This document shows, in pieces, positions 2,185 to 55,935 of a stretch of DNA of 64,000 nt. Position numbers and translations under genes: made by a program. Origin of the DNA: Hexactinellida sp. DTS-2022. Lineage: Eukaryota; Porifera; Hexactinellida. The DNA lies in contig JAPNXP010000011.1 in assembly GCA_028753945.1 (NCBI GenBank), forward strand, positions 4,154,001 through 4,218,000, read 5' to 3'. The notes under the pieces were generated by a model that searched no databases, had not been told where the DNA came from, and worked only from the letters and a program-made list of their open reading frames with translations. The stretch's first letter is position 1; each line of letters begins with the position of its first letter.

Positions 2185-2400
2185 GTAAGGAGATCGGGTT
2201 ATCTTTGCGTAGTATCCGGGCCGCAGTGGTACATACCACTGTCGGCAGGAGCCACAATCGTGGACTGTGGCTATAAGGAAGCGTGACCACCCTGATACCA
2301 GGGGTAGTCATGGGGTCGAGGGTCACCTCCTGATGAGTTCCTGTAATGAAACGAAACCCCACTAGCAGCAGTCGGCTGGCTAGTCTACAGTTACCCATAG
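2185..2400 (+). repeat. Hammerhead-bearing repeat, unit A
   Basis: About 215 bp of structured GC-richer sequence, with hairpins such as CAGTGGTA/TACCACTG (about 2224-2241) and CCCTG/CAGGG (about 2290-2303), then a hammerhead core, then a conserved tail CACTAGCAGCAG. The same blocks, including AAGGAAGCGTGAC, recur at 32840-33055 and 55720-55935; a more distant relative is at 20510-20760. Confidence 0.75.
2311..2361 (+). ncRNA. Hammerhead ribozyme, unit A
   Basis: Order of elements: stem III 5' strand UGGGG, then U and the cleavable C (2317), stem I hairpin GAGG-GUCA-CCUC (2318-2329), core CUGAUGA (2330-2336), stem II 2337-2352, GAAA (2353-2356), stem III 3' strand CCCCA. Stem III is the open one, so this is the type III permutation. 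Stem II here is GUUCC/GAAAC with one C-A mismatch, so activity may be weakened compared with the unit at 20679. Confidence 0.75.
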
Positions 2401-3070
2401 TGGAAACACTACCACTTTACTACACTTTGTTACTTTCTTGATATATTAATTGCATTTGGTTAATACAGACGAATACCGTAATAGATCCCCTAGTCCGAGA
2501 CATACAAGATTGTGCAGCTAGGAGTATCATAGTATAATAAATACAACTGATAAATAAAAACCTTTCGTTAGTACGAACACGGCAATAGAAAATTATTAAT
2601 TCCTGTTATTTAACTTCATGCACAGCTTAATATTAACTCCAAATTAACTTTCACGGTCTGGTATTCGCAGTAACGAGATTTGACAGGTAATCATAATCTA
2701 TGAAACATATTCACATGTTGCAAGCTGTTGGATTTAGTCCATCTAAAAGTTCTTTAGTCTTTTCACTGCTAACCTGATTGGAAATAAAAGTTATGGGTAA
2801 AACAATTATACGGTATAAGTTTGTTTGGACTACTATTGTGAGAACTCCTAATTCACAAACAAAACACAATACATGTATGTATTATTCAGTACATACAATG
2901 ATGTAACTCAAAGTAATCGAACATAATGAAAAAGAGACAAAATAAGTAATAAAACTGTTGCCTGTAGAGAGGATTATCTAAAATCGAAAAAATAATAACT
3001 AACAAGCCAAGGCAGTTAATACTGGCTCACTAGGAAGTAGAATACACAGAAACAAGAGCTCATGAAATGT
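2401..3070. other. Intergenic, nothing recognised
   Basis: AT-rich sequence, shared with 33056-33756, between the hammerhead repeat and the 3' end of the minus-strand propeller gene. No open frame of note and no repeat structure seen. Confidence 0.5.
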
Positions 3071-3979
3071 TCATGAGATGCAACAGAGATAATTAACAAT
3101 GTCCATTAATCTGTGGACATGAATTCTGCCATTAGGAGTAATTAGAATTAATTGATCATTGTTTGTTAATAGAATTTGTCTATATTCTGTTCCCTCAAAC
3201 ATGATGCGACTTAATTCGCCATTTTTCTGCCAAATTTGAATACCATTATTTGAGCAAATAATAATATTACTGAACTGGTCAATACAGATTTCATTAAAAG
3301 GACAAAATTTAGGAAGTTCGAAATGGTTTCCTAATTTCCTTGTTGACCGGACAAGCACAGTTCTACTAACTGAGCAAATTAAATTATTCTCCCTGGACAT
3401 TACAACCATTGTATCATCCCGGATATGGAGAGAGGTGATAAAATAATCATCTGGTATGTCAATTTCAATCACTTCTTTGAATTCCAAATTCTGTGAATAA
3501 ACAGCAATTTTGTTTCTCTCACCATTAGTGTAGATATTCCCTGTCTCGTCGAACTCAATAAAGACTGTTTTATATCGAGAGAAATGGAACTTTTGTGAAA
3601 AATCAGTTAGAATAGGAGGTCTCAAAAAACCGTCGCATATCATTATCATGTGATCCGTAAACCTAACATTCCCAGTCCAGGGACTATTACTATGACAAAT
3701 CTTCCCTGTTATTTTTCTTGTCACATGATAACCTTCTAGAGTGAATATGTCAATAGCACGCTCCTCGATAAATGACCCTATCACGAACTGCCAAGTTGTA
3801 ATCTTCGCATTTATTCTTCTTCCACTGTAGATCAGTATCAAGTTTTTATCATGATTCAGTGCTGAGCAAATAATATTGTGTTTTACAGTTGGGAATGTGG
3901 CTACCAGTGAAATTGCAAATTCATCATTAATGGTTTTCAGCTTTTTAGAACTTCTATCAGATGTAGTAGATCTCTCCAT
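3071..3979 (-). CDS. Beta-propeller (NHL-like) protein, copy 1
   Basis: A 302-aa single-exon protein. After a short basic N-terminus (RSSKKLK) it consists of repeated beta-strand-rich units; the clearest, around residues 140-170, has the NHL/propeller pattern of an acidic-Gly turn followed by NIYTNGERNKIAVYS. A second unit near FSNIIICSNNGIQIWQKNGE has the same layout. No signal peptide or membrane segment. I start at the inner ATG (3979): just upstream the two duplicates differ by one base, which throws any longer extension into different frames. Relative to 33757-34662 there are three 3-bp indels and a few substitutions, all frame-preserving. The family is usually a protein- or RNA-binding scaffold; the function here is unknown. 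Confidence 0.7.
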   Translation of the reverse strand: MERSTTSDRSSKKLKTINDEFAISLVATFPTVKHNIICSALNHDKNLILIYSGRRINAKITTWQFVIGSFIEERAIDIFTLEGYHVTRKITGKICHSNSPWTGNVRFTDHMIMICDGFLRPPILTDFSQKFHFSRYKTVFIEFDETGNIYTNGERNKIAVYSQNLEFKEVIEIDIPDDYFITSLHIRDDTMVVMSRENNLICSVSRTVLVRSTRKLGNHFELPKFCPFNEICIDQFSNIIICSNNGIQIWQKNGELSRIMFEGTEYRQILLTNNDQLILITPNGRIHVHRLMDIVNYLCCIS

Positions 3980-5109
3980 AGTGGTAAAAATATGGATATT
4001 CAATGTTATTCAAACAAGTACAAACAAAAGAATACAGCATTTCTATATAAACAACAATTATGGTTCATAAATAATCAGAGCAGTGTATATGTAGTTTTCA
4101 CTTTAGAGTGATAAACCAAAAGATAATCAGCTGGCAAACACATTTGGTTTAAATAAACGTATACAGGTAACCTCCGAGATACGGAATCATCGGGATAATA
4201 AGTATGTGCCGTATCTCGGACAGCGCCCTTATACAGTCTTAATTTACTAGGTTAAAGTCGTAATATCACATATTGATACCAATAAGTACTAATACTTATT
4301 TAAAAAATTCATCTAAGTGTTGACTGGCTCAACTTCTTGAGCTTAATTACAAAGCAACCATCTATCTTGCTTGCAATAGTATCAGCCTCTTTTCCATGGC
4401 CACTAACTTCGAGGATGTTTTGAACATTTTCAAGTGACTATGGCCTCCTCCTAGGTGTTAAATATAAATGGAGAGGGACACTGAATGTAAATCTATACCG
4501 ATTAACCGAGGAGCAAGTTTTTGGCCTATGTGTCTACTTTCTATATTGACCTAAGATGTACACCAACCGACCAAAAGTATTTGAACAATAAGAATTTTAT
4601 TCCAGACACTAATACTTCTTGTAGCATATTCACGGAGGTATAACCTAATCTGAAACACATGAAATATGTTGCTATAGTTATAAATTTCAAAAATTTGTGA
4701 TTTTGAGTCATTTTAATCCAAAATCCATGAAGTGGCATAAGTATCCCTGCAATCTGCAACTTGTGGCACAAGTGGCACAAAATGGAAATGTGGCTGTATC
4801 TCAGTGGAAAATAATCTTAATCATTAGAAATTTTGCACCTAGAGTAATTCAAATCTGAAATCATAATTCTTATATTATTATTGCCTCATTATGATAATAA
4901 ATTATACATTTAATTAGCTAATTATACAGTTAATGAGTTTAACGCCTCTATAAACATGCCAATTTAAAAAATATGTAATTATATTCTAGTTAACATAATT
5001 TTTATATCAATATCCATGTATAACCATCTCAAATGCTATTATACTGCTAGAAGCTTGATTGTAAGAATTCAAATTGTTGTTGTTCAATTATTTTGGCCGC
5101 AATATCTAG
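3980..5109. other. Intergenic; fragment with inverted CCGAGATACGG
   Basis: Upstream of the propeller gene. Contains an 11-bp perfect inverted repeat CCGAGATACGG/CCGTATCTCGG (about 4172-4215) preceded by ACAGGTAACCT, which looks like the remains of a pogo-like MITE; shared with about 34853-34908. The stretch about 4674-4935 is single here but tandemly duplicated in copy 2. No gene seen. Confidence 0.5.
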
Positions 5110-5501
5110 TATCTATACTATCTATATATATAAAAAACAATGTCTGTCTGTCTGTCTGTCCTCACATCTCTGAGATGCCTGAACCGATCTGTACCAAATT
5201 TGCATATTATCTAGGAATTACCTACCACTCCAGATAAGGAATTTTTAAGAAAAATAATCACTTCTTCCATCCCCAAGGTGACAAAACCTTTAACCAATTA
5301 AATTCGAGGGTTGTCCAGTATGGATTAGCATCTAGAATCCAATTAGTATAAAAGGATTTTTTATGTTTTTTTTAAGTGTGCAGTATAGAATACCTAACTG
5401 AGACTGTAATTTAATTGGGCGAGAGTAAATGAATTCATCCAATCAGTTATTTGTGTTCCGTTTGTATAGCTGTTGTATTCCTATATGATTTCCCATAATA
5501 T

Positions 5502-5560
5502 AAACAACAATTGAATATACATATAGACCAAAAACAACAATTGAATATACATATAGACCA
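5502..5560 (+). repeat. 30-bp minisatellite, two units
   Basis: Two tandem units of an AACAACAATTGAATATAC-containing 30-mer inside the Helitron 5' region. The paralogous site at 36643-36731 has three units, so it is length-variable between the duplicates. Confidence 0.85.
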
Positions 5561-6141
5561 ATAAAATTCAACCTTACATTTGTGTCGTTGTGTTGTTTAA
5601 TAGTCATACCTATTGCTATATATAGATCGGATTGACATTATTTTTGCCAACTTCAGTCATAATTGACATATTAAATCCAAACCTGTTATTCAACTATTAC
5701 GTATTCTACTTAAAAAACGTTCGCGTGCTGGTAATGATTGTAAACAAACGCCCAATACAGCGAGAAAGCGAATAAATCGTGAAAATGAAACTTACCACCA
5801 AAGACAAGTCCGTCTCAAACAGATCGAAAAACAACTGCAACCTCGAGATCCAAAAAATAGGATAATCTCTCTGGCGCTGCTTTTTCATATGATTCCAATA
5901 CTGGCTATAAGAACCAACCCTCTCTGCTGATTAGTTCCAGACAGAAATATGTTCCTTTTGCAATGCAAAAAAATTCAAAGGAGAGACAGCAGGCTTATGC
6001 TGTAATAACGTAAAAGTACAGCTGCCCAATCTAAAATATCGACCTGAACTGATGGAATATTTAATGCTGGGAGAGACTGCTGATTCAAACATTTCTTAGA
6101 AAACATACGCAAGTATAACTCTTGCTTTCAAATGACATCTT

Positions 6142-8687
6142 TTGGATCAACAACAAAAAATTAGGGAGCCCGGATATATGCCAAACTTCAAAATTCAAGG
6201 CCAAGTTTACCATACAGTCGGATCGTTGCTTCCTCTACCAAATGAGTGCCCTAAATTTCTTCAGATTTATTTCATTGGGATGATATTGCGGAGGCCATTT
6301 AGAGGTGGAACACAATCCCTGGAGTTAGGAATCAAATAGTTCTCTCACTTCAAGATATGCTGCACAACAATAACAGTTATGTTACTTCATTCAAATCAGC
6401 TATAGTAAGAATGTCTAACGAGGAATACTGAATTATAATTAAAGCTGATAAGATCCCTGAGGGCGAAATGAGCAAAGATTTAATGCTCCAGTCAGAAATG
6501 AGGTAGCCATATTGATTGTTGGGCAAGAATTCGAAAAACGAGACATAGTCTTAGAAAAGAGAAGCAGTGGCCTGATATGAATTGCTGAAACCCATCGTTC
6601 TTATGATAGCCTTCAATATCCTTTAATTTTTTGGCAAGGACAAGATGGATACAACTTTAAAATTCTGCAACAGGATCCCATTACCAAGGTTAATAATCCT
6701 TGGAAAAAAGTTTCCTCTAGGGACATCTATGCATATCGTTTCATGGTTCGTAATGACAACTTCAACATTATTCAACGCAGCAGGAATCTATTCCACCAGT
6801 TTGTTGTGGACATGTATGCCAAGGTAGAGACAGAACGGCTCAATTTATTCGACTAAATCAGAAGAAGTTACTTGTAGATGATTACATACATCTGTTGTAG
6901 CTGGTGATGGAAATTACACAATATTGGCCTATTAGTTATTTACCGTGATCTTTCACTGGAGGCCCGCGCTACATGCATGAAAGAACGCAGGATGCTATGA
7001 CTTATGTCCGGAATTATGGCAGACCAGATTTGTTCATAACATATCCTGCAACCCGCTTTGACCTGAGATTACTGATTCATTAATGGTGGCCCAGAAATCG
7101 CATGACCGCCATGATATTATTGCAAGAGTATTCCGGCAAAAAGTTATCAAACTGATGGATCTTCTTACAAAGGAAGTGCTTTCGGTAAAACACTCTGCCA
7201 CATGTACACTATTGAGTGGCAGAAACGCGGTCTCCCACATGGCTCACATATTGATTTGGCTTAGAGAAAAAATCTGACAAACTACGATGGATCAATGCGT
7301 CAGTGCAGAGTTTCCTGACCCTAAAGAAGATCTCAAATTATACAACATCATAAGACAAATGATTCATGGACCGTGCGGAGCTCTCAACAAGAATTCACCA
7401 TGCATGAAGGATGGCCGATGCACACAAAAAATCCCAAAAACGCTTAGTGGAGGAAACACAGTGTGGTGAAGATGGATATCCCAAGTACCGAAGAAGAGCA
7501 CCTGGTGAAGATGGTTTCTCAGCAAGGACAATTGGGAGAGCTGACTGTTGATAACAAATGGTAGTTAGTTACAGTCCTTTGCTGTGCAAAATCTTTAATG
7601 CCCATATCAACGTAGAGTTTTGCAACTCAATCAACTCTATCAAATATGTTTGCAAATATATCAATAAGGGTACAGACCAGGCGGTATTCGCACTTGAAAA
7701 AGAAGGAATGGATGAAATAACTGAATTTTCAACAAGGACGTTACATTTGCAGCAACGAGGCACTGTGGAGACTCTTCAGCTTTCCGATCCATGAGCGATA
7801 TCCAACAGTTGCATCTCAGAGTTCATCTAGAAATGGCCAACGTATCTATTTCACAGAAGAGACATTATGTCAACAAATAGAAGTTCCCACCAACACCATA
7901 CTTAGAGCATTTTTTCAACTTTTCCAAGAAGATGACTTTGCCAAAACTACTCTATGTGGAAGTCCCAAAATACTACACCTGGGAACAGAGTAACAAAAAG
8001 TTCAAACGACGTACCCAACTAACCCAAGGAGCAGCGGTAGAAGGATTTCACGAAATCAAGGCAAGTGATGCACTTGGGAGAGTTTACACAGTCCACCCCA
8101 ATAACTTTGAATGCTTCTGTTTGAGGCTGCTTCTACATCGTGTTCATGGTCCAACCTCATTCCAAAACTTGAGAACTGTGAGTGGTCATGTTTACCCAAC
8201 TTACAGAGCAGCATGCAACGTATTGGGTTTGTTGGAAGACGATTCTCATTGGAATGATACCTTATCAGAAGCTGCTACGACTGATTCTTCGACAAAGCTT
8301 AGATACCTATTCGCCATCATGTTAGCAACATGTGGACTATCAAATCCAAAGCAACTATGGGAAAATCATAAGGACAGTCTTTCAGAAGATGTACACCGTC
8401 AAGTCCAGCAGAATAATCCTACTGTTGAAATAAACTACACTGATGACATCTACAACAGGACTTTGATATTGCTAGAAGATTTGGTCCTGTCCATAAATGG
8501 CAAAGCCCTACAAGAGTTTGACTTACCATCTCCAGTTCGCACCAACGCCCCAATTGCCAATCGAGAAATCTTGAAAGAAACGAATTACTGCATTGACCAA
8601 TTGGAGTCATACATTCAGGATAATGAACCTCTGTTAGTGCCAGATCAAGCCGCTGCATATGATAGGATGAGACTAACTGTTCAGTAA
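6142..8687 (+). pseudogene. Helitron Rep/helicase pseudogene, copy 1
   Basis: Pieces of one Helitron protein lie in all three plus frames: a GQVYHTVGSLLP block (about 6200), KKVSSRDIYAYRFMVRN (about 6705-6755), RNLFHQFVVDMYAKVETERL, a degraded HUH-nuclease region around WQKRGLPHMAHILIWL (about 7219-7266) with an extra base in the motif, HGPCGALNKNSPCMKDGRC (about 7365-7420), and a longer intact piece at 7932-8687 ending in LVPDQAAAYDRM, the usual beginning of the Pif1-type helicase. The helicase itself (Walker motifs) is absent. Many frameshifts and stops show it is dead. Confidence 0.85.
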
Positions 8688-9355
8688 GAGAGAGGAACTA
8701 ACTGTTCAGGAAGAGAGAGGATTTTTGATTAACAAATTTTGGACACATTTTTAACACCTTTCAAAGAAATTTTGGTCCATAACTCAAAAATATTACACTA
8801 AACCCTCAATTTTTATTTTACCATTGGATTCACCATAAAATTCTGCGTCGGATGGGAGAAGATAAATTTTAATAATGGGTTTAATTCATGCCATAAATGG
8901 AGGTTTAAATTCCCTTTGTTTACTAACACTTCAGTTCAATTGAAAGTGTTAAATCAAATTCTATTGTTTCAACTTGTAATAATTATATTGATTTAACTTG
9001 TTAAATCTTACTCTATTGATTCAACTCGCGATAATTACAATGATTTAACTTATAAATTCCAGCTGGCTTCTATTTAATTGTAGTATTACTATACAATGGA
9101 TGAAATAAGATAATATAATATAAGGAAAAGGAATTTGTTGACTCAACTCGACCAACCGTGGATAACATTGCTAAATTAATTAAACATTATATTATAATTT
9201 ATTATCCATACATACATATGGCATTAAACTCAAGATGGTTTATGATAGAAACAAACTTCAAATTTATCGACCGTTCCTTGTGACTCGGACAAATTAACAA
9301 ATGGTTCTTGAGACAGTAAATAAATCTTGACACCTTGAGGCGTCGATGACTTGGC

Positions 9356-9482
9356 AAAAAATCCAAAATTGCAGCCTGTGCCGACAGCATGTTCCTTTGG
9401 AGGCACTATCAATAAACAACCAACAAAATATAGTGCCACCAAAGGAACAAGCTTATGGCACAGGTTGAAATTTTGGATTTTA
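9356..9482. repeat. 125-bp palindrome, unit 1
   Basis: An inverted repeat with arms of about 50-55 bp. The left arm contains AAATTGCAGCCTGTGCCGAC and a GTTCCTTTGGAGGCACTAT segment; the right arm is its complement. It would fold into a long hairpin. Related units: 10316, 11624, 12681, 40608, 41662. Confidence 0.85.
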
Positions 9483-10315
9483 TTTTATTTTTATTACTGT
9501 CAGCCGACTATACTTTAGTATAGTGGCCCAGTATTGAAATCACTGCCTTTTTTTTATATATTTTTCTCCGTAGACGGTGCCCTGGCCAGAGCTTTATACG
9601 CACCACGAGTGGAATAAGTTTTACAACACATTTTACAAATTTGATGGCCTAATCTTCATGAAATTCCTTGAAATCTCAAAAAAATGTCCCTAAATCACGA
9701 AAACTTTGAAGATATTTAAATCTGCCACATCCACGTATATCTAGTAAAAAACTACTCTGTAGAAAAAAATACAATTCATTAATCTAGCTATTTCGTGTTT
9801 GTTGTATTATCGCATACATTGGGTGAATACGAGATACGCGGGAAGAAATTTGATGAATAGAACTAGAAAAATAGGCGTTTCTTAATTGTAAATATCCAAA
9901 CATAAAAAATAATCATATTAGATCGTCCTATTCATGATAGATTTTTTTAAATAGCGTAGATTTTGAGTCTCCCGCTTTTCTCCGGATTTTTCATCTTAGA
10001 TCTCCCGCATTTTTGGTAAACTCCCGCCAAAAATGGCAAAACCTCCCGATTTTTGGTTTCCAGAGGTTGGCATCCCTGATATTACTATACTACATTCGAT
10101 TAAATAAAATAATATAATAAAAGGAATTTGTTGACTTATCTCATTCACCGAGATAACAATGATAAAATAAAGAACATAATTTAGTATCAATACATAATGA
10201 ATGAATGGCATTAAACTCTAGATGGTTTATGATAGAAACAAACTTCAACCGTTCCTTGTGACTCGGACCAATTAACAAATGGTTCTTGACATCCTGAGGC
10301 GTTGATGACTTGGCG

Positions 10316-10440
10316 AAAAATGCAAAATTGCAGCCTGTGTCGACAGCATGTTCCATTGAAGGCACTATCAATAAACCACCAACTGAATATAGTGCCACCA
10401 AAGGAACATGCGTCGGCACAGGCGGCAATTTTGTATTTTT
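10316..10440. repeat. 125-bp palindrome, unit 2
   Basis: Same family as 9356-9482, with both arms recognisable (GCAGCCTGTGTCGACAGC and GCGTCGGCACAGGCGGC). Present only in copy 1. Confidence 0.85.
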
Positions 10441-11623
10441 ACTGTGGCAACTATACTTTAGTACAGTGGCCCAGTTCTAATCTTACTGCTTTTATTATTA
10501 TTATTATTATATCTCCGTAGACGGTGCCCTGGCCACACCTTATACATTGAGGGCTGAAACTTGGCATGTAGGATTGGAGTTACCGTATAATTTGCACCTG
10601 GGGTTACGATTTTTGATCAAAGAATTTTAACACCTATTTAAACTAATTATGGCTCTCATTACATGAAATTATACCTTGTGAATTTGATAAATTTTTATAT
10701 TTGGATAGCTATTTTAATTCTACACCTTTTGGAAAATCAAAAATGTTCAACCGTGTGTTGTTTATGCCATAATTGGGGTGCCAATCTCCTGTATTTCATC
10801 ACACTTTAGATCAGTAAAACTGTTAAATCAATTTCCATTGTTTGAACTTGTAATAAATATATTGATTAAACTTGTTAAATCTTACACTATTGTTTAAACT
10901 TTCGATAATCATATTGATTCCACTTGTGAAATCGAGTAGGCTTCTATTTAATAATTGAAAACTAAGATTTTACATTCCATAACAACAGATTATGTGATTA
11001 TATTTATTTCTGCAAGAGTATTCTTGCACAATGGATACACTTACATATTTAATTCTAATTAAATCGCTCTGTGTTTAACTTATAGAGAGGGTTCCAATTA
11101 GATTATTGGGGTTATCGAGTGCGCTGAATTCAAATATGATAGTGAAATTAAATTAAAATTAATAATAATTGCAAATAATTGAACTTAATTTATTTTGCAG
11201 TACATAATAATGGTGTTAAATAATTAATTAATTAATTAAATAATTATACTAATTAGCTAAATTTCATTAATCTCAAAGATGATACAAGATAGAAACAAAC
11301 TTTCAATTTATAAATTGGTCCTTATGGCACGTACCACCTATACAAGTGGGTCTTGACACCTTGAGGTGATTATGACATCGTCAAAAAAATGTATTTTTAC
11401 AATTTTGTGAATTAAATAATTCGCATGGGTTGTTTGGATTTGGGTGAATACCCAAGACGCACTTTAAAAATGCTGAGTCATCACAGATTATATTCTACTG
11501 AAACTTGAATATCTCTTAAATGAAGTGAGCTAAATGGAAACTTCCAACTCACTAAGGGTCGTTGCCTTTTGAAACACCTTTCTGAAATAATTTAACATCC
11601 TTCATAGTGATGATGACATGGCG

Positions 11624-11751
11624 AAAAAAAAATCAAAAATTGCAGCCTGTGCCGACAGCATGTTTCTTTGGAGGCACTATCAATAAACCACCACCAAATA
11701 TAGTGCCACCAAAGGAACATGCGTCGGCACAGCTGCAATTTTGGATTTTTT
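11624..11751. repeat. 125-bp palindrome, unit 3
   Basis: Closest relative of the single unit at 40608-40732: both have TGTTTCTTTGG and the CCACCACCAAATATAG centre, whereas unit 1 has TGTTCC. This marks the right side of the copy 1/copy 2 difference. Confidence 0.85.
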
Positions 11752-11834
11752 AATTATCCGTATCCTCTCCACAGAAAAGAGTTTTATTAACTAAGAACTG
11801 AAACTATCAGGACAGGTGTCTCATGGGTTACAGA

Positions 11835-12593
11835 CAGGACCGGCCTTAGCCAAATTGGCGCTCCGGGCGAGGACAACCTACCGCGGCCCCCTAGCCCCTA
11901 CGAAGGGAATTTGAATCATTCCAAGTTCCTATTCTACCACACTGTTTACAGCGCTTATTTGCTCTTAGAAGCTAGTGTGTAGCTGTTAACAGCTCATATT
12001 TAATGTCATAATGGCTCAAAATTGCTAATAACGGCTTGTTAATAGCTGTTAAGGGAATTTGAACACCTTGCTGTAGCATATGTAATCCAGTGTTACACGA
12101 GGGCCGAAATTCTAAGTGAAACAATTTGAAAGTTACTTTTCTTTATAATCGAGAATATGAATGATTAAAAATTGCAGGGCTTTTCATGAATCACGATCTT
12201 TTCAACTCGAGTCACCGAGTCATTTCACTCGATGATTCATGGCGACACGCGAGTATTTGAGTCAATCAAATGATTCGTGAAAAGCCCTGAAAAATTGTTG
12301 TTAACAGCATAAATTGCTGTTTGCTGTTAACATCCTAGTAGTTTCCACCCTGGTTATAACAATAGTCGCCAAGGAAATTTTGGTATATTTTGTGGCAACC
12401 AGGTGCGCCGAACTTTGTAAAATCTTGATCGTACCAGCAATTCAATCAGCTCATACATTGTTGAGGTGTGCACGTGTGCTCGCTTTATGAGATCGCAACC
12501 AACCAGGTGGGGCTTAAGCGCCCCAATTTCCTTCGGGCTCGGCGCGCATATGGCGCCGACAATAGGCCTTAACGCTCCCTAAGGCCGCCCCTG
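11835..12593 (+). mobile_element. hAT-type MITE with 8-bp target duplication, copy 1
   Basis: Flanked by perfect direct repeats GTTACAGA (11827-11834 and 12594-12601). Termini are imperfect inverted repeats: CAGGACCGGCCTTAG on the left, and the complement of CAGGGGCGGCCTTAG on the right. 759 bp without a coding frame; an internal inverted repeat around CTCGAGTCACC (about 12205-12260). Also at 40818-41574, with the same target site, so it predates the duplication. Confidence 0.9.
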
Positions 12594-12680
12594 GTTACAG
12601 ATGTGCACCTGGGGTCACGATTATTGATTACATTTTTTGGACACATTTTGAGACCTATTTAATGTTGCGACATGAACAAT

Positions 12681-12803
12681 AAAAATCCAAAATTGCAGTC
12701 TGTGCCGACGCATTCCCTTTGGAGGCACTACATTTGGTGGTTGGGTAACTAGTAGCGCCTCTAAAGGAAAATGCTGTCTGTACAGCTGCAATTTCGGATT
12801 TTT
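12681..12803. repeat. 125-bp palindrome, unit 4
   Basis: A diverged unit with arms CCAAAATTGCAGTCTGTGCC and GTCTGTACAGCTGCAATTTC. Interrupted at its right end by the TTAA MITE at 12808. Confidence 0.8.
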
Positions 12804-12807
12804 TTAA

Positions 12808-13151
12808 GGGATTTGAAGCATATCTTGTCCACATACAATTACCTTTTAATCGGCTAAGTAGTATGTAACAATGTAAATCTCGGTAATAGACCTAATTTCG
12901 CACTTTGACTATTTAAAAATTCAAAAATCAAGTTAGTTGACATCAAAAATATGATAAAAGTGGGCGAAAAAACGATTATGGGTCAATTTTTCCGCTTCGT
13001 CACCCTCATGTGAGATATCCAGAAGAGTTAGAGTGGAAAATTCTGGTCTGTTACAAAAATTTACATGGATATATACTACTTAGCCATTTAAAATGTAATT
13101 GTATGTATATAGGATGTATATAGGATTGTATGTATATATGCTTCAAATCCC
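12808..13151 (+). mobile_element. TTAA-flanked foldback MITE (piggyBac-like), copy 1
   Basis: Bounded by TTAA on both sides (12804-12807, 13152-13155). Termini GGGATTTGAAGCATAT and ATATGCTTCAAATCCC are complementary, and the inverted similarity extends inward (ACTACTTAGC blocks). The TTAA target suggests piggyBac mobilisation; it has no coding capacity. Also at 41789-42133. Confidence 0.75.
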
Positions 13152-13155
13152 TTAA

Positions 13156-13835
13156 AAATTAGTTAAAGAATGGACCTCCCATGGTGTCATTGAGGTTTGG
13201 AATCTTCAAAAGGCTATTACAATAAAAGCATAGTTCCGATTGAATTGAAATTTTCAGTGCAGCTAGTACTTATTGTATACTATTCAAAAACACTCTAATC
13301 TCAATTTATGAATTGTTCAGAGAGGGGACTAAATTTTCAAAATGATTGCCGGAGGCCCTTTGAATTTGTCGTTATAAAAAAAATTGCCCACATTTTCGAG
13401 ACCGGCATGGGAGCTTAAATCGCGAGATATACCCAAAGTATCAGAATCAGGCATAAAACTTAACTTCCCAGAGGTTTGTCACGCAATCTTAGATTTTGAC
13501 CCCACTAATATTGGATTTATTTATAGACGCAATGGCTGTACATATATGAATCTAATTGACTAGTATTAATTTAGAGATCAAATTTCAACGTTGATAGGAG
13601 AACCAGTTTACTCAATTAAACTTTGTTAATAGTTATTTCAACTTTGCTATAGAGATATTATATAATAATTAAAACTTGATTACTCTTTAAACAAATACAG
13701 CTGTCACATGATATCACATAGGTATATATTAATGACATATAATCAAGTATATTCTTGACTTGAGATAATCAGTTAGTTTGAGAAACATACTTACTTCTAT
13801 TGAAAAAATTACAATTTATTTATTCCTATTTAGCA
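13156..13835. other. Upstream region of the AMOP gene, copy 1
   Basis: Nothing recognisable beyond AT-rich sequence shared with 42138-42817. Presumably holds the promoter and 5' UTR of the plus-strand gene at 13836. Confidence 0.4.
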
Positions 13836-15029
13836 ATGAACATTATATCTTTTCTACTCTTGAGCTACTTCACAATCTACTCGGTTACCTTTGCATTCTC
13901 ACAAGACGAATGCTCCAACGCGCCAACCAACGCAAAACCATTTATCCTGCAAGAAGTAGGCGGAGAACAGTTAACTATAAACATACCCTGCCTACCCAAG
14001 AAACCTGATCATGCTAACATCAAATGTAAATATGAGTCATTCCCAGATATTGTTTCTGATGGGAAAATATTGGGAGAAAAACAAGTCTCATGTGTAACAC
14101 CCGCGTTTATAAATCTCGGAATTCAAAAGGTATTTGTGTCAGTTGATAACGGCGGTTCATTCCCGTATGTCGGAAAATTCTTTGTGCAGAGTGAATATCT
14201 CCTAATGCCACTTCTCAGTATTGAGAATTTCATGTCCGGCGATTTATTCGATTTCACGACTGACAGGATTGTTACCCTGTTTTGGGATAAGAATTTAATC
14301 CCGCATGACGTTATAACATTGGAATTAATATTGATTGAAGACCCAATATTAGAGTTGATAAATTGGATGGAAAGCACAGTTCTAATTGAAAACATAGACA
14401 ATACTGGAAAACTCTCATTCAGTTTCTCCAATGTTGCTATCTCTATTGAAAAACGAAAAAAGTTTGAAAATACACCAATAACTATTGGTAAATTCATACT
14501 AACTAATCCTAGCACGAGTTTATACCTGGGTGGGCCTAGTCTTTTGGTTACCTTCATAAACATACCGTTTTCAGCATGCAAACTATTCGATCCTATCTTG
14601 GAGCAAATCCCGAAAGGAACCCTTCCCTGTCCATGCAACACAACACAAGCGAAAAATGACAACAACTTTCATGGAGATACAGATACACCCAGCTTGCAAT
14701 TCTTCCATCCAGGTGTGGCCACCTGCTTCAGATCAGTTCCTAGTGAATACGGTTCCAGTGAACAGTGTTGCTACAATGCAAATGGTAGCATTAACATAGG
14801 AACCCAAGGATCAGGAACAGCAGATACCTACAGTCTAGATGTTAGTAATATTAAACATAGCATTTATGATGTCTTGCCATGGATCGTGTGCTGTAAGGTA
14901 GCAGGTCGCTGCGAGTACTACGCGAAATTTAGACCTTCTAATAACTGTAATAATTACATACCTCCTCAATTAATTAATAATGAACTGTACAGACATAATA
15001 CTGAACTTGATATTATGTATTTCATTTGA
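13836..15029 (+). CDS. Secreted AMOP-domain protein, copy 1
   Basis: 397 aa from the ATG at 13836, followed by a hydrophobic signal peptide (ISFLLLSYFTIYSVTFAFS) and an acidic-Cys mature start. Residues about 50-118 (paired Cys, then VSVDNGGSFPYVGKFF) resemble an IPT/TIG-like domain. Residues about 248-376 form an AMOP domain: CPC, then FHPGVATCFRS, QCCY, LPWIVCC and RPSNNCNNYIPP, with the expected Cys spacing. In mucin-4, SUSD2 and Mesh-type proteins, AMOP is followed by a vWD domain; here the chain ends about 20 residues after AMOP, so it is either a short secreted version or an exon of a longer gene. Likely extracellular adhesion or matrix role. The opposite strand has a 180-codon shadow frame, rejected. 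Confidence 0.85.
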   Translation: MNIISFLLLSYFTIYSVTFAFSQDECSNAPTNAKPFILQEVGGEQLTINIPCLPKKPDHANIKCKYESFPDIVSDGKILGEKQVSCVTPAFINLGIQKVFVSVDNGGSFPYVGKFFVQSEYLLMPLLSIENFMSGDLFDFTTDRIVTLFWDKNLIPHDVITLELILIEDPILELINWMESTVLIENIDNTGKLSFSFSNVAISIEKRKKFENTPITIGKFILTNPSTSLYLGGPSLLVTFINIPFSACKLFDPILEQIPKGTLPCPCNTTQAKNDNNFHGDTDTPSLQFFHPGVATCFRSVPSEYGSSEQCCYNANGSINIGTQGSGTADTYSLDVSNIKHSIYDVLPWIVCCKVAGRCEYYAKFRPSNNCNNYIPPQLINNELYRHNTELDIMYFI

Positions 15030-15183
15030 TTTTGATACTTTTCTACTATTCTGTACTGTATACTACGTATGTACATACTTGGGAAACTACACCATAGTAC
15101 CTATTGTGTTTAATGATTATTCTGTCTTTCCCCAATTGGATAGTTAAAGGGTTTATATCACGATCTTACAAAAAAGTATATTT

Positions 15184-15240
15184 TCGGTATATAGAACCAA
15201 GTTAATACGAAATTCGGTTAATAAGTCATTACTTGAGTAT
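15184..15240 (+). mobile_element. Truncated pogo-like MITE at the duplication boundary
   Basis: Matches the left end of the element at 44167-44325 (TATAGAACC, GTTAATACGAAATTCGG) but is cut off where copy 1/copy 2 similarity ends. The duplication breakpoint therefore lies inside a MITE. Confidence 0.55.
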
Positions 15241-16289
15241 CTCGGAGGCTTTCGCAATTCGGAGGACAATATTTGAAGGCCAACTAAAGCTCAAAAAGTT
15301 TGGTACAAATGTTTAATTAGTATGAAAAATGCCAACTACAAACAAACATACAAGCTAGTAAACTAAAAGAAATGAGTAAATATGGGGAACAACTATCTAT
15401 CTATGTCTGTTTGTTTGTTTGTCCAGAATTAATTGGAAAGACTACGAGTCCCAGAAAGCTGAAAATTTGTATACAGGGATAATTTTGTACTGCAACAACG
15501 ATCTATTGGTTTTCGAAGAGAAATATTCACATTCAAAGGTGACAAAATATGTTAGCCAATTAAATTCGAGGGTTTGTTAGTATGGATTAGCAGACTTAAT
15601 CAATTAGTATAAATAGATTGTGCATAATAAAAAGATTTTCTGAGGCTGCAATCTGATTGAGTGAAAATATATTCATTTAATCAATCAATCATTTGTCTAT
15701 TCTATTGCCTGTTTTTCTTTAGTATTATTTGGATTCGAGCTTTCTTATCGTGCACCTGAAATATATTGGGCTACTAATGGGAGATTTGAATTTCCCAAAC
15801 AAATTACATTATATTTGTATTTTATTAAGGATACTTTATGAGGAATATATTTAATTAATACACTACAAAGATGTAGAATTCTAAATGGTTTATTTCAAGG
15901 CGTAAAGCGCCGAACAGTAACAAAGCGACCGAGACCGAAGGGCTCGTTGAATTAATAAGCGTACAAATTTCTTACCCATAATCAGTTTGTTGGCACAATA
16001 ATTCACACAGTAGTCACTTCCCGAGAGTTCTTGAATGTTAAATATTTCTCCTTGTCATTCAGGGCCCCAGCTTCTTCCTTATTTTCATAGATTTAAGAAT
16101 GGATAGTTCTATTACGGTTGATGGCTCGTAAATATTGTTGCCTTTACAGGTTTGGACTTCAGAGATAGTAGTTTTCATCTAGATAAAATTATACCAAAAT
16201 TAGCAAAAGCCAGAGTAGTATATAACCGTGATGAGAAATAGCAAGGATATATGATCAGAAGGATATACTACAATATTTTTTGGTTTGAA
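15241..16289. other. Intergenic with a Helitron 5'-end relic
   Basis: Besides the Helitron-like fragment at 15395-15710 I see no gene. The remainder (15711-16289) is AT-rich and adjoins the 3' end of the EGF pseudogene. Confidence 0.4.
15395..15710 (+). mobile_element. Non-autonomous Helitron 5' region relic
   Basis: TGTTTGTTTGTTTGTCC run, then a block that parallels 5130-5460: AAGGTGACAAAA, CCAATTAAATTCGAGGG, GTATGGATTAGCA and an AATTAGTATAAA block occur in the same order. Diverged; no coding part follows. Confidence 0.55.
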
Positions 16290-20495: not shown

Positions 20496-20509
20496 GAATC
20501 TTGTATTTG

Positions 20510-20760
20510 TTATGATCCTCAGGAGTACTTGGGGTTGAGGAGCCCTGGGTAGGTGACAGTACGGGCTGACCATGACTACGGGTCTTGGTATTTACGAGCC
20601 GGCAGTACGACTGGTAACCATAGTCTAGGGCACCCGCAGGAGCTACGGGCTGGAGCGAGAGGTGCGGCAGTACGCATGGTGGTCGAGGGTTACCCTCCTG
20701 ATGAGTCCCTGTGATGGGACGAAACCACACACATATAAGCAATAAACTTGTGTAAAGTAC
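20510..20760 (+). repeat. Hammerhead-bearing repeat, unit C
   Basis: GC-rich block starting CCTCAGGAGTAC, with iterated GGCAGTACG words (about 20560-20675) and ending with a hammerhead. It shares its 5' block (CAGGAGTAC, CAGTACGGGC) with 54130 and 55460, and its core architecture with units A, B and D, but the middle differs. Confidence 0.7.
20679..20728 (+). ncRNA. Hammerhead ribozyme, unit C (best preserved)
   Basis: Stem III GUGG-U / A-CCAC (open), cleavable C at 20684, stem I hairpin GAGGG-UUA-CCCUC (20685-20697), core CUGAUGA (20698-20704), stem II GUCCC-UGUGAU-GGGAC (20705-20720), GAAA (20721-20724). Every stem is fully paired. Compared with the other units, stem II changes from GUUCC/GGAAC to GUCCC/GGGAC and stem III from GGGG/CCCC to GUGG/CCAC: compensatory changes that support the fold. 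Type III permutation by my reading. Confidence 0.85.
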
Positions 20761-32839: not shown

Positions 32840-33055
32840 AGGAGATCGGGTTATCTTTGCGTAGTATCCGGGGCCGCAGTGGTACATACCACTGGCGGCA
32901 GGAGCCACAATCGTGGACTGTGGCTATAAGGAAGCGTGACCACCCTGATACCAGGGGTAGTCATGGGGTCGAGGGTCACCCTCCTGATGAGTTCCTGTAA
33001 TGAAACGAAACCCCACTAGCAGCAGTACGGCTGGCTAGTCTACAGGTACCCATAG
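32840..33055 (+). repeat. Hammerhead-bearing repeat, unit B
   Basis: Duplicate of unit A (2185-2400), with small differences such as an extra G in CCGGGGCCGC and CACCCTCC where A has CACCTCC. Confidence 0.75.
32964..33015 (+). ncRNA. Hammerhead ribozyme, unit B
   Basis: Same layout as unit A, but stem I is longer and fully paired (GAGGG-UCA-CCCUC). The core CUGAUGA and GAAA are intact, stem III UGGGGU/ACCCCA. Stem II keeps the single C-A mismatch seen in unit A. Confidence 0.78.
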
Positions 33056-33756
33056 TGGAAACACTACCACTTTACTACACTTTGTTACTTTCTTGATATA
33101 TTAATTGCATTTGGTTAATACAGACGAACAGCGGATTAGATCCCCTAGTCCGAGACATACAAGATTGTTCAGCTAGGAGTATCATAGTATAATAAATAAA
33201 ACTGATAAATATAAATTCTAAAACCTCTCGTTAGTATGAACACGGCAATAGAAAATTATTAATTCCTGTTATTTAACTTCATGCACAGCTTAATATTAAC
33301 TCCAAATTAACTTTCACGGTCTGGTATTCGCAGTAACGAGATTTGAAAGGTAATCATAATCTATGAAACATGTTCACATGTTGCAAGCTGTTGGGTTTAG
33401 TGACTTTAGTCCTTCTAAAAGTGCTTTAGTCTTTTCACTGCTAACCTGATTGGAAATAAAAGTTATGGGTAAAACAATTATTCGGTATAAGTTTGTTTGG
33501 AAAACTATTGTGAGAACTCCTAATTCACAAACAAAACACAATACATCACTTTATATACATGTATGTATTATTCGGTACATACAATGATGTAACTCAAAGT
33601 AATCGAACATAATGAAAAAGAGACAAAATAAGAAATAAAACTGTTGCCTGTTGAGAGGATTATCTAAAATCTAAAAAATAATAACTAACAAGCCAAGGCA
33701 GTTAATGCTGGCTCACTAGGAAGTAGAATACACAGTAACAAGAGCTCATGAAATGT
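33056..33756. other. Intergenic, nothing recognised
   Basis: Counterpart of 2401-3070 with small indels. No gene or structured repeat seen. Confidence 0.4.
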
Positions 33757-36642: not shown

Positions 36643-36731
36643 AAACAACAATTGAATATACATATAGACCAAAAACAATAATTGAATATACATATAGACC
36701 AAAAACAACAATTAAATATACATATAGACCA
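36643..36731 (+). repeat. 30-bp minisatellite, three units
   Basis: Three units of the 30-mer of which copy 1 has two (5502-5560). Confidence 0.85.
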
Positions 36732-39949: not shown

Positions 39950-39950
39950 G

Positions 39951-40607: not shown

Positions 40608-40732
40608 AAAAAAAATCCAAAATTGCAGCCTGTGCCGACAGCATGTTTCTTTGGAGGCACTATCAATAAACCACCACCAAATATAGTGCCACCAAAGGAA
40701 CATGCGTCAGCACAGCTGCAATTTTGGATTTT
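40608..40732. repeat. 125-bp palindrome, copy 2 unit at the deletion junction
   Basis: Left flank (ATGACTTGGC) matches the flank of unit 1 (9356), while the interior and right flank match unit 3 (11624). It is thus a hybrid, consistent with recombination between the two. Confidence 0.85.
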
Positions 40733-40817
40733 AAAATTATCCGTATCCTCTCCACAGTAAAGAGTTTTATTAACTAAGAACTGAAACTATCAGGACAGGT
40801 GTCTCATGGGTTACAGA

Positions 40818-41574: not shown

Positions 41575-41661
41575 GTTACAGATGTGCACCTGGGGTCACG
41601 ATTATTGATTACATTTTTTGGACACATTTTGAGACCTATTTAATGTTGCGACATGAACAAT

Positions 41662-41786
41662 AAAAATCCAAAATTGCAGTCTGTGCCAACGCATTCCCTT
41701 TGGAGGCACTACATTTGGTGGTTGGGTAACTAGTAGCGCCTCTAAAGGAAAATGCTGTCTGTACAGCTGCAATTTCGGATTTTTTT
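41662..41786. repeat. 125-bp palindrome, copy 2 counterpart of unit 4
   Basis: Matches 12681-12803, again abutting the TTAA MITE. Confidence 0.8.
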
Positions 41787-41788
41787 AA

Positions 41789-42133
41789 GGGATTTGAAGC
41801 ATATCTTGTCCACATACAATTACCTTCTAATCGGCTAAGTAGTATGTATCAATGTAAATCTCGGTAATAGACCTAATTTCGCACTTTGACTATTTAAAAA
41901 TTCAAAAATCAAGTCAGTTGACATCAAAAATATGATAAAAGTGGGCGAAAAAACGATTATGGGTCAATTTTTTCCGCTTCGTCACCCTCATGTGAGATAT
42001 CCAGAAGAGTTAGAGTGGAAAATTCTGGTCTGTTACAAAAATTTACATGGATATATACTACTTAGCCATTTAGAATGTAATTGTATGTATATAGGATGTA
42101 TATAGGATTGTATGTATATATGCTTCAAATCCC
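41789..42133 (+). mobile_element. TTAA-flanked foldback MITE (piggyBac-like), copy 2
   Basis: Counterpart of 12808-13151, with TTAA at 41785-41788 and 42134-42137. Confidence 0.75.
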
Positions 42134-42137
42134 TTAA

Positions 42138-42817
42138 AAATTAGTTAAAGAATGGACCTCCCATGGTGTCATTGAGGTTTGGAATCTTCAAAAGGCTATT
42201 ACAATAAAAGCATAGTTCCGATTGAATTGAAATTTTCAGTGCAGCTAGTACTTATTGTATACTATTCAAAAACACTCTAATCTCAATTTATGAATTGTTC
42301 AGAGAGGGGACTAAATTTTCAAAATGATTGCCGGAGGCCCTTTGAATTTGTCGTTATAAAAAAGATTGCCCACATTTTCGAGACCGGTATGGGAGCTTAA
42401 ATCGCGAGATATACCCAAAGTATCAGAATCAGGCATAAAACTTAACTTCCCAGAGGTTTGTCACGCAATCTTAAATTTTGACCCTACTAATATTGGATTT
42501 ATTTATAGACGCAATGGCTGTACATATATGAATCTAATTGACTAGTTTAAATTTAGAGATCAAATTTCAACGTTGATAGGAGAACCAGTTTACTCAATTA
42601 AACTTTGTTAATAGTTATTTCAACTTTGCTATAGAGATATTATATAATAATTAAAACTTGATTACTCTTTAAACAAATACAGCTGTCACATGATATCACA
42701 TAGGTATATATTAATGACATATAATCAAGTATATTATTGACTTGAGATAATCAGTTAGTTTGAGAAACATACTTACTTCTATTGAAAAAATTACAATTTA
42801 TTTATTCCTATTTAGCA
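42138..42817. other. Upstream region of the AMOP gene, copy 2
   Basis: Counterpart of 13156-13835. No motif called. Confidence 0.4.
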
Positions 42818-44011
42818 ATGAACATTATATCTTTTCTACTCTTGAGCTACTTCACAATCTACTCGGTTACCTTTGCATTCTCACAAGACGAATGCTCCAA
42901 CGCGCCAACCAACGCAAAACCATTTATCCTGCAAGAAGTAGGCGGAGAACAGTTAACTATAAACATACCCTGTCTACCCAAGAAACCTGATCATGCTAAC
43001 ATCAAATGTAAATATGAGTCATTCCCAGATATTGTTTCTGATGGGAAAATATTGGGAGAAAAACAGGTCTCATGTGTAACACCCGCGTTTATAAATCTCG
43101 GAATTCAAAAGGTATTTGTGTCAGTTGATAACGGCGGTTCATTCCCGTATGTCGGAAAATTCTTTGTGCAGAGTGAATATCTCCTAATGCCACTTCTCAG
43201 TATTGAGAATTTCATGTCTGGCGATTTATTCGATTTCACGACTGACAGGATTGTTAGCCTGTTTTGGGATAAGAATTTAATCCCGCATGACGTTATAACA
43301 TTGGAATTAATATTGATTGAAGACCCAATATTAGAGTTGATAAATTGGATGGAAAGCACAGTTCTAATTGAAAACATAGACAATACTGGAAAACTCTCAT
43401 TCAGTTTCTCCAATGTTGCTATCTCTATTGAAAAACGAAAAAAGTTTGAAAATACACCAATAACTATTGGTAAATTCATACTAACTAATCCTAGCACGAG
43501 TTTATACCTGGGTGGGCCTAGTCTTTTGGTTACCTTCATAAACATACCGTTTTCAGCATGCAAACTATTCGATCCTCTCTTGGAGCAAATCCCGAAAGGA
43601 ACCCTTCCCTGTCCATGCAACACAACACAAGCGATTAATGACAACAACTTTCATGGAGATACAGATACACCCAGCTTGCAATTCTTCCATCCAGGTGTGG
43701 CCACCTGCTTCAGATCAGTTCCTAGTGAATACGGTTCCAGTGAACAGTGTTGCTACAATGCAAATGGTAGCATTAACATAGGAACCCAAGGATCAGGAAC
43801 AGCAGATACCTACAGTCTAGATGTTAGTAATATTAAACATAGCATTTATGATGTCTTGCCATGGATCGTGTGCTGTAAGGTAGCAGGTCGCTGCGAGTAC
43901 TACGCAAAATTCAGACCTTCTAATAACTGTAATAATTACATACCGCCTCAATTAATTAATAATGAACTGTACAGACATAATACTGAACTTGATATTATGT
44001 ATTTCATTTGA
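42818..44011 (+). CDS. Secreted AMOP-domain protein, copy 2
   Basis: 397 aa from the ATG at 42818, with the same signal peptide, IPT-like and AMOP regions as 13836-15029. Only three residues differ: Ser for Thr in IVSLF, Leu for Ile in DPLLEQ, and Ile for Lys in TQAIND. All AMOP cysteines are conserved. The near-identity against more diverged flanks suggests either selection or gene conversion. Confidence 0.85.
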   Translation: MNIISFLLLSYFTIYSVTFAFSQDECSNAPTNAKPFILQEVGGEQLTINIPCLPKKPDHANIKCKYESFPDIVSDGKILGEKQVSCVTPAFINLGIQKVFVSVDNGGSFPYVGKFFVQSEYLLMPLLSIENFMSGDLFDFTTDRIVSLFWDKNLIPHDVITLELILIEDPILELINWMESTVLIENIDNTGKLSFSFSNVAISIEKRKKFENTPITIGKFILTNPSTSLYLGGPSLLVTFINIPFSACKLFDPLLEQIPKGTLPCPCNTTQAINDNNFHGDTDTPSLQFFHPGVATCFRSVPSEYGSSEQCCYNANGSINIGTQGSGTADTYSLDVSNIKHSIYDVLPWIVCCKVAGRCEYYAKFRPSNNCNNYIPPQLINNELYRHNTELDIMYFI

Positions 44012-44166
44012 TTTTGATACTTTTCTACTATTCTGCACTATACTATGTACATACTTGAAAAACTGTAATATAATACTATTGTGTGATAATTATTAATTAT
44101 TCTGTCTTTCCCCAAGTGGATAGTTAAAGGGTTTATATCACGATCTTACAATAAAGTATATTTTCG

Positions 44167-44325
44167 GTATATAGAACCCAGTTAATACGAAATTCGGTTA
44201 ATAAGTCACTATTTGAGTCTCTTTAAAATCCTTTTCAATACAAATTATATTATGTAATACGAATTCCGGATAAGGCGAGCGCATTTTGACGGTCCCTTGG
44301 TGTTCGTACTTAAAAGGTTCTACTG
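44167..44325 (+). mobile_element. Degenerate pogo-like MITE
   Basis: Ends TATAGAACC..GTTAATACGAA and GTGTTCGTACT..GGTTCTACTG correspond to the family at 52347-52515. Copy 2/copy 1 similarity ends inside it (about 44221). Confidence 0.6.
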
Positions 44326-52843: not shown

Positions 52844-53686
52844 TATAACACTAGTAGAATTAATATTATGCTAATTTATAAATAAATTACAGGAGAATGC
52901 ATTTTGACGGTGGTATTCGTACTACCGAGGGTCTAATGTAATATTCTAAATAAATACAGTACACCCTCGCTAATCCGAGGAGAGGTGTTCCGATTCAAAA
53001 AAATTCTGTTCCGATTAGTGAAGTAATACATTTTCTATAGACCTCTATAGACAGGGCCGGATTAACCCATGGGCAACCGGGGCCTCCACCACCAAGGTTG
53101 TACTTCATTTTTCATGGACATTTGTAGTGGAAGGAGTTAGGGACAGGGACGTCACTACGGGGGGCATAGGGAGGAAATGCCCCCCTGGTAGAAATCCTCG
53201 CCCCGGGGCAATGCTCTTCTGCTAAAATTTATTGAACTATTTTATTCCTCTGATTCATTGATGCTATTGAATTCAATTTAATGAGTTCACACTTTCCAAT
53301 CCATTTGAGTCATATGTCTGTACGAGGCTCCAATTTTCCCCTGTACATTGGTCAAGATCCCTAGACACCTCAAATTTTATTCTCGCTCGTTTCGCTCGCT
53401 CGTCTAAAATGTAAATCTACACTTTATTGAAACGAACTACACTGACCCCTAAGCATTTTATTATGTGTGTCAAGATATACATAAGAACATGTTATTTATT
53501 CTTATTATTTAAGTTTGACATACCGTATTTCCCCGAATAAGCGCCGGGTCAATAAAAATGACATTGGTATGATAAAATTTATACACATTAGTTGATCACT
53601 GTAATATAATTCCATTGATTTTGACAACTTCGGTAGGCATACTATTGGTGGAAACCATTAGAACCCACCTAAATATTATATTCTTG
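52844..53686. other. Intergenic; MITE fragments
   Basis: Upstream of the VIT-VWA gene. Contains GCATTTTGACGGTGGTATTC (about 52899), an ACAGTACACCCTCGCTAATC end (about 52960) and GC-rich hAT-like pieces (AGGGACGTCACTACGGGGGG at about 53145). No gene. Confidence 0.45.
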
Positions 53687-53781
53687 ATTAAATAGTTTCG
53701 GACAAGTTCGGTTCGGATTATCTCATTCTATAGACTATAGAATGAGATAATCCGAACCGAACTTGTCCGAAACTATTTAAT
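53687..53781. repeat. Perfect palindrome, 47-bp arms, 1-nt centre
   Basis: 53687-53733 and 53735-53781 are exact complements as far as I can read, around a single A (53734). The outer end is ATTAAATAGTTTCGGACAAG. No element-like target duplication is obvious; ends just before the MITE at 53798. Confidence 0.9.
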
Positions 53782-53797
53782 CCAAACTAAACATATA

Positions 53798-55439: not shown

Positions 55440-55510
55440 TGTTATGAGTATCACTGGACCTTCAGGAGTACAGTCCTTTGGAAAGACTGTAGGTGGCAGT
55501 ACGGGCAGAC

Positions 55511-55698
55511 CAGGGTTTCATCATCCAGGCGTATGCAACGCGTCTGGAGGCACGTAAATTTGGAAGGAAATTTTTCTAGGCGCGCGAAAATCGAGAGATG
55601 CTCCCATAGACTTAATACAAAATGAGTAATTTAGGCGGGTGCGAGCGAGCTCAAACTAAATCTAGGCGCGCGGGAAATTTAGTCTGGATGAAATCCTG
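55511..55698 (+). mobile_element. hAT-type MITE nested in hammerhead repeat D
   Basis: Perfect GGGCAGAC repeats (55503-55510, 55699-55706); ends CAGGGTTTCATC and the complement of CAGGATTTCATC. The uninterrupted counterpart of the site is visible in unit C (about 20565). A relative lies at 44372-44552. Confidence 0.92.
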
Positions 55699-55853
55699 GG
55701 GCAGACTATGACTATGTGTCTTAATATTCTGTAGTATCGGGGCCGGTACGAGTGTTGTGTGGAGACGCCGTATACCGGCAGTAGGCACGAGTGGTCGTTA
55801 AGTAGACACCGTGGCAATAAGGAAGCGTGACTACCCACTGATGAGGTGAGTCA

Positions 55854-55905
55854 TGGGGTCGAGGGTCACGGTCCTGATGAGTTCCTGGAATGGAACGAAA
55901 CCCCA
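55854..55905 (+). ncRNA. Hammerhead ribozyme, unit D
   Basis: The core CUGAUGA (55874-55880), a perfect stem II (GUUCC-UGGAAU-GGAAC), GAAA and stem III UGGGGU/ACCCCA are present. Stem I is degraded (GAGGGUCACGGUC pairs only at the two base-proximal positions), so it is probably impaired. Confidence 0.72.
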
Positions 55906-55935
55906 CTAGCAGCAGTTCGGCCGGCTATTCTACAG

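Follow-up and report, generated by a model that had tools for sequence, protein, structure and literature searches.

Long terminal repeat (LTR) retrozymes carrying type III hammerhead ribozymes have been described in plants, as far as the relevant sections of the cited reports extend (PMC4918200, PMC7229834, PMC7761336, PMC6155905, PMC11722881, PMC11721086, PMC3088659), whereas the animal retrozymes covered in the same sections are non-LTR elements with type I hammerheads (PMC7229834, PMC11722881). One of these accounts also mentions bacterial or insect elements bearing type III hammerheads, partly as work in preparation (PMC7761336). A difficulty has been pointed out for the plant elements, in that the RNA, once cut, no longer has the terminal repeats on which reverse transcription of LTR elements depends (PMC4918200). 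No LTR retrozyme in an animal was found among the open-access titles and abstracts listed, subscription papers and preprints being outside this scope. The DNA considered here, termed the window, is a 64,000-nucleotide stretch from the glass sponge Hexactinellida sp. DTS-2022 (assembly GCA_028753945.1, contig JAPNXP010000011.1, positions 4,154,001 to 4,218,000 of the forward strand), in which four hammerhead motifs are embedded in dispersed repeats. These repeats, most of them solo or truncated, are very probably LTRs that belong to non-autonomous LTR retrozymes of an animal. Judged by their sequences, they form two lineages, here called A/B and W, which differ in the length of their target duplications and in their primer sites.

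A family of type III hammerheads

A pattern search of the + strand of the window recovered CTGATGA...GAAA cores at 2311, 20679, 32964 and 55854, all with an open stem III and a C at the cleavage position, as an earlier, sequence-only reading of this DNA had described. The type III order that it assigned to them was borne out by the Rfam model RF00008 (Hammerhead_3; gathering score 48.5 bits), two of the four matches exceeding this cut-off and two falling just below it (Table 1). The motifs thus share topology and core with the viroid and plant type III hammerheads of that family, but are genomic and situated in animal LTRs. Stem III is approximately 5 bp long, and stem I is a GAGGG-UUA/UCA-CCCUC hairpin, impaired in two copies. 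The GUUCC/GGAAC form of stem II attributed to the window was found at 55854 only, the copies at 2311 and 32964 having GUUCC/GAAAC with a C.A mismatch. Loop II of one subfamily, UGAGAU, presumably resembles that of peach latent mosaic viroid. The copies at 2311 and 32964 are enclosed by a duplication (1802-4936 and 32456-35618, 95.8% identical) and have in common their flanks and a CTTTG target duplication; they therefore represent one insertion, and the four motifs of the earlier reading are reduced to three independent insertions.

The family was sought throughout the window's assembly (112.4 Mb in 18 contigs), from which loci labelled L plus a number were fetched. All of the 68 places scored with RF00008, out of 12,319 first-look candidates, matched at E <= 0.001, with 64 above the cut-off and a best E-value of 1.8e-12; this total is a lower bound, since the window's own two above-cut-off matches fall outside the 68. 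A failure of genome copies to conserve CUGAUGA/GAAA, which the sequence-only reading had named as refuting it, is thus not observed. Across the fetched loci and the window together, 118 occurrences of a core pattern were counted. The family was detected in none of 14 control genomes, and neither a 26-mer of the ribozyme, searched exactly in IMG/VR, nor a 24-mer, searched in prokaryote genomes, had a match.

Stems were compared in 61 distinct sequences, taken from 97 of 100 pattern places after three had been dropped. The core is fixed across this set, in part because the search pattern demands it. Variable positions of stem III pair as TA, GC, AT or GT/TG, and stem II changes on both sides (CG/TA). 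The three outer pairs of stem III are intact in 167 of 183 cells, against a mean of 140.7 and a maximum of 155 in 2000 shuffles that ignore relatedness. The suggestion that pairing rather than sequence is kept, which the four window copies illustrate weakly, thus holds in the genome-wide set. The identification as hammerheads follows from the covariance model and the genome-wide family; the bare core pattern, of which nine of 100 shuffles of the window reach four occurrences, carries no weight. At L054-L058 and L064-L067, the similarity to another hammerhead copy extends through most of the flanks compared (700 bases upstream, 500 downstream), as though these copies had spread as parts of longer duplications and not by transposing.

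Long terminal repeat structure

Alignment of copies of one A/B subfamily gave sharp ends, TGTGACG...CATAACA, and the W family is delimited by TGTAGTATC...TTACTACA. An exact 4-bp target duplication flanks A/B copies at 18 of the 44 places where both ends were found, 54 of 98 places having been dropped for lack of a recognisable end, and duplications of 5 or 6 bp at none of the 44; shuffled partners yielded a mean of 0.75 and a maximum of 5 in 5000 trials. The end patterns behind these counts were fixed by family and written after the alignments had been viewed, and the 3' pattern was replaced once, its predecessor having stopped short of the LTR end (8/44). W copies show an exact 5-bp duplication at ten of 24 places (10 of 34 rows were dropped for the same reason), an exact 4-bp one at a single place and a 6-bp one at none, compared with a mean of 0.61 and a maximum of 4 in 5000 shuffles. 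The 5-bp figure becomes 8/22 when the insertion pair in the window is counted once, as are L068 and L126, which have common flanks.

Complete copies retain two LTRs, each with a type III hammerhead (L040, L069 and L109). For instance, the A/B element at L069, read from the sequence, consists of an internal region between two LTRs of 330 bp, enclosed by AGTA and AGTA, and the W element at L109 lies between ACATG and ACATG. LTRs measure 325-330 bp in L040 and L069, within the 300-400 bp or so expected of LTR retrozymes, 203-328 bp in other A/B copies and approximately 203-238 bp in the smaller W elements. The internal region spans only around 160-175 bp in L040 and L069, by which length it is judged to be without coding capacity, and a purine tract abuts the 3' LTR in both lineages (L040 and L069 in A/B, L109 and L110 in W). 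It is on the basis of the TG...CA ends, the 4- and 5-bp duplications, the purine tract, a tRNA-type site or junction hairpin, and the complete LTR-internal-LTR copies that the repeats are read as LTRs of LTR retrozymes. A SINE-like reading of the repeat is contradicted by these features; the earlier remark that such a ribozyme form would be unusual in an animal stands.

The plant LTR retrozymes, as portrayed in parts of PMC4918200, are similar in having a type III hammerhead in each LTR, a comparable LTR size, a short non-coding internal region, a purine tract, many solo LTRs, Ty3/gypsy-like boundary boxes and a stable RNA fold. Their 4-bp duplications match those of A/B, whereas W has 5 bp. 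Inverted composites, described below, are a further difference, as are the animal host and the size of the unit: the RNAs between two cleavage sites would be 486, 486 and 527 nt long at L040, 504 nt at L069 and 380 nt at L109, as opposed to 600-1000 in the plants (PMC4918200). These predicted RNAs have a GC content of 51-54%, against 35% in the window, and their predicted circular folds are more stable than those of 60 dinucleotide shuffles each (z of -6.8, -7.4, -5.6, -6.1 and -4.6).

Priming sites and possible route of mobilisation

At L085, L110 and L125, all of them W copies, a single T separates the LTR from TGGTGCATTGGCCGGGAA, the query having been taken from L085; L109 has the site TGGCGACGAAGGTGGGAT one base after its LTR. 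These are read as transfer RNA (tRNA) sites of Gly and Ser type; no tRNA-type site was seen in A/B elements, and no tRNA genes were found in the window or in 60 of the 128 loci (L009-L068). As a tRNA-Met site was seen in neither lineage, the elements are filed as a variant rather than within the plant retrozyme family, for which the same source gives tRNA-Met sites (PMC4918200).

A/B elements instead carry a hairpin at the junction of LTR and internal region; in the six selected for an 8-nt palindrome at this place (L012, L040, L046, L069, L071 and L072), its arms pair perfectly over 14-16 nt. Its halves covary across the LTR boundary, as CATAACA/GTTATG, CATGACA/GTCATG and CGTAACA/GTTACG. Within their own LTRs, the six have a complement to the junction stretch of 5-7 nt only. 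Tail-to-tail composites turn at this hairpin at L025, L040, L048 and L073 (seven of the 14 junctions listed, including some recorded on each strand), as well as at L118. Matching outer duplications enclose those at L040 (CTAT), L025 (CGTA) and L048 (TGAA, read from the sequence), which were therefore inserted as units; only one side is visible at L073. Such dimers would be the expected product of LTR copying from the 3' arm of the hairpin, with DNA snap-back as the alternative.

The box RGGGAAGGTGATGTTAT, allowing one mismatch, occurs at nine places in the genome, compared with two for a reversed-pattern control: in the retrozyme at L069, in five copies of another repeat (L091-L095) and at the 3' LTR starts of Ty3/gypsy elements at L096, L097 and L098. 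Upstream of L097 and L098 lie pieces, spread over several frames, with matches to RVT_1, Integrase_H2C2 and rve arranged as is typical of Ty3. The LTRs of one gypsy element, G1, differ at 1 of 187 positions and are flanked by ATGT/ATGT. The sequence following its LTR has a complement of 14 nt within that LTR (10 nt in the copy L108), and the equivalent complement in a second element, G2, is 13 nt at L106 and 11 nt, starting 9 nt in, at L104; the best complement elsewhere in the G1 and G2 copies is 7-8 nt. As sequence signatures, these 10-14-nt complements in four gypsy 5' LTR copies are a mark of Tf1/Tj1-type self-priming, in which, according to the part of PMC4600332 concerned, the primer site is complementary to a stretch within the LTR. 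In the A/B retrozymes, unlike that type, the complement is found not within the LTR but immediately beyond the site, in hairpin form. A/B retrozymes and these gypsy elements agree in their purine tract and LTR start and likewise lack a tRNA-type site; G1 also matches A/B in duplication length. The A/B elements are probably mobilised by such gypsy elements. The repeat at L091-L095, approximately 98% identical over 1.4-1.7 kb, has an open frame and no recognised LTR; its box, GGGGAAGGTGATGTT, may be common by chance or by descent.

The following route can be proposed. A transcript running through both LTRs would be cut by the two hammerheads to give an RNA of approximately 380-527 nt, which would be ligated into a circle; a Ty3/gypsy reverse transcriptase would copy this circle, and the integrase would insert the complementary DNA through its TG...CA ends. 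Host tRNAs would prime lineage W at its Gly- and Ser-type sites, and lineage A/B would parasitise the self-priming gypsy elements. Because ribozyme cleavage strips the transcript of its own 5' end, the usual self-primer, the A/B primer would be carried in cis, as the 3' arm of the hairpin, with the 5' arm spanning the LTR end and primer site; this is the weakest step. There appears to be an even chance that A/B has in this way moved the self-primer of a Tf1-like gypsy partner into a cis hairpin joining the LTR end to the internal region, such that a cut or circular RNA lacking its 5' end would stay reverse-transcribable, the tail-to-tail dimers being a record of hairpin priming.

Almost equally plausible is that the elements are LTR retrozymes in which the A/B hairpin serves the stability of the circular RNA or is a DNA-level palindrome, with an unrecognised primer and composites produced by DNA snap-back. 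Palindromes invite such snap-back, and W composites arise without the hairpin, as in the head-to-head composite at L084, bounded by GATTA/GATTA. Yet the hairpin is positioned at the self-priming site of the gypsy elements with the same box, its arms covary over the boundary, the tail-to-tail composites turn there, and neither a tRNA-type nor an LTR-complementary site is apparent in A/B. An origin as solo LTRs of coding, autonomous gypsy elements, with the ribozyme as a passenger, would fit the predominance of single LTRs and the existence of gypsy elements with the same boundary box; it is nevertheless improbable, as the complete copies seen (L040, L069 and L109) are too short inside for pol, no genome-wide search for coding LTR elements having been made, and the G1 and G2 LTRs examined have no hammerhead core.

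Less probable by some way are ordinary metazoan retrozymes or SINE-like satellite repeats, moved by the machinery of long interspersed nuclear elements or Penelope-like elements. Metazoan non-LTR retrozymes, as described, likewise place a hammerhead in a short non-coding animal repeat of similar unit size, but their hammerheads are of type I, and LTRs, primer sites and purine tracts are absent from them (PMC7229834, PMC11722881). Some sponge copies are also close together or tandem (L018, L040 and L060). The hammerheads are nevertheless of type III, none of the 73 scored in this genome matching type I, although controls gave none either, so that this is no proof of absence; moreover, exact duplications, TG...CA ends, purine tract, primer sites and LTR-internal-LTR copies are not those of such repeats, and the type III form and the 4-5-bp duplications argue against a Penelope-like element in particular. 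Chance hammerhead-like motifs, which 1.48 expected occurrences of the bare pattern in the window and an impaired stem in three of its four copies might suggest, can be set aside given the RF00008 scores and the two-sided changes in the stems.

Several observations weigh against the preferred interpretation as LTR retrozymes with these priming modes. No exact duplication is present at 26 of the 44 A/B and 14 of the 24 W places, some of them in composites or complete copies and others degraded, and the inverted W composite at L085 has no outer duplication. The selection of elements by their palindrome biases the count of junction hairpins, and the rve match of G1, at 25.7 bits, is below the Pfam cut-off. 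The tRNA identities are putative: TGGTGCATTGGCCGGGAA would be complementary to the 3' end of human tRNA-Gly(GCC), and TGGCGACGAAGGTGGGAT would resemble tRNA-Ser(GCT).

The window in its genomic setting and wider implications

The window harbours three W LTRs and one 3'-truncated A/B LTR (Table 1). The sequence-only reading had joined a CCTCAGGAGTAC block (20518) and a CACTAGCAGCAG tail as the two sides of one ribozyme-bearing repeat, but they belong to two different LTR families with little in common beyond the ribozyme; that the repeat is dispersed was correct.

Table 1. Hammerheads and LTRs in the window, with RF00008 scores
Feature	Position	Strand	Details
Type III hammerhead	2310..2362	+	43.7 bits (E 3.1e-6), under the cut-off; cleavage predicted after 2317; one base lost from stem I, C.A mismatch in stem II
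Type III hammerhead	20677..20730	+	56.5 bits; cleavage predicted after 20684
Type III hammerhead	32963..33016	+	52 bits; cleavage predicted after 32970; C.A mismatch in stem II
Type III hammerhead	55853..55906	+	44.4 bits (E 1.9e-6), under the cut-off; cleavage predicted after 55860; two mismatches in stem I
W-family LTR, apparently solo, CGTAGTATC...TTACTACA	2208..2424	+	target duplication CTTTG at 2203-2207 and 2425-2429
A/B-family LTR, 3'-truncated	20508..20735	+	5' end TGTTATGATCC judged visually from aligned subfamilies; target duplication not found
W-family LTR, duplicated copy of the 2208-2424 insertion	32860..33079	+	CTTTG at 32855-32859 and 33080-33084
W-family LTR, TGTAGTATC...TTATTACA	55730..55963	+	no target duplication found

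Several other repeats are found nearby. A large direct duplication relates 1-15242 to 28392-44222, in aligned blocks 95.4-97.8% identical with gaps between them, and carries an AMOP-domain gene twice, along with two sets of fragments taken here to be Helitron-like, a name given without a Pfam match. An open frame at 24324-25958 encodes MULE transposase and C-terminal RING finger domains. Inverted blocks of a GGAATATGTCCTACA repeat lie on either side of it (24086-24184 and 26201-26337), and outer inverted blocks of a similar kind are present again at 58624-59008, which may be a short derivative. A palindrome of approximately 885 bp (31106-31989) is 97% identical to its own reverse complement. 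Candidate microRNA matches at 53685-53782 were rejected because both strands match several unrelated models (MIR171_2, mir-232 and mir-208) below threshold; the near-perfect palindrome that holds them, at 53679-53789, is probably a foldback element. A 9-bp minisatellite at 679-1505 gives long single-amino-acid runs in its six frames. Elsewhere in the assembly, contig ends (L086-L089; C1, C15 and C2) consist of satellite repeats of around 200-400 bp, and no telomere repeat was seen in the 500-base ends at L086-L089. Glass sponges are characterised, in the passages concerned, by the lack of Wnt and a GC content near 36% (PMC10282587, PMC10280926, PMC5684314), close to that of the window. No Wnt candidate was found in this genome, although controls gave none either, so that this is no proof of absence; TGF-beta matches occur at four places, one with an internal stop, in keeping with an animal. 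The RPL3 of this genome is likewise animal-like, scoring highest, at 630 bits, with ribosome chains identified as vertebrate, ahead of those taken to be from fly (592), fission yeast (568) and plants (about 554).

If the interpretation of the repeats as LTR retrozymes is true, these elements extend from plants to animals, and a single genome hosts two lineages, each matching a different mode of priming reverse transcription. A cis hairpin primer on the circle, if true, would furthermore offer a testable answer to the loss of repeated ends by plant retrozymes, and the elements bear on the relation between viroid-like RNA circles and genomic elements.

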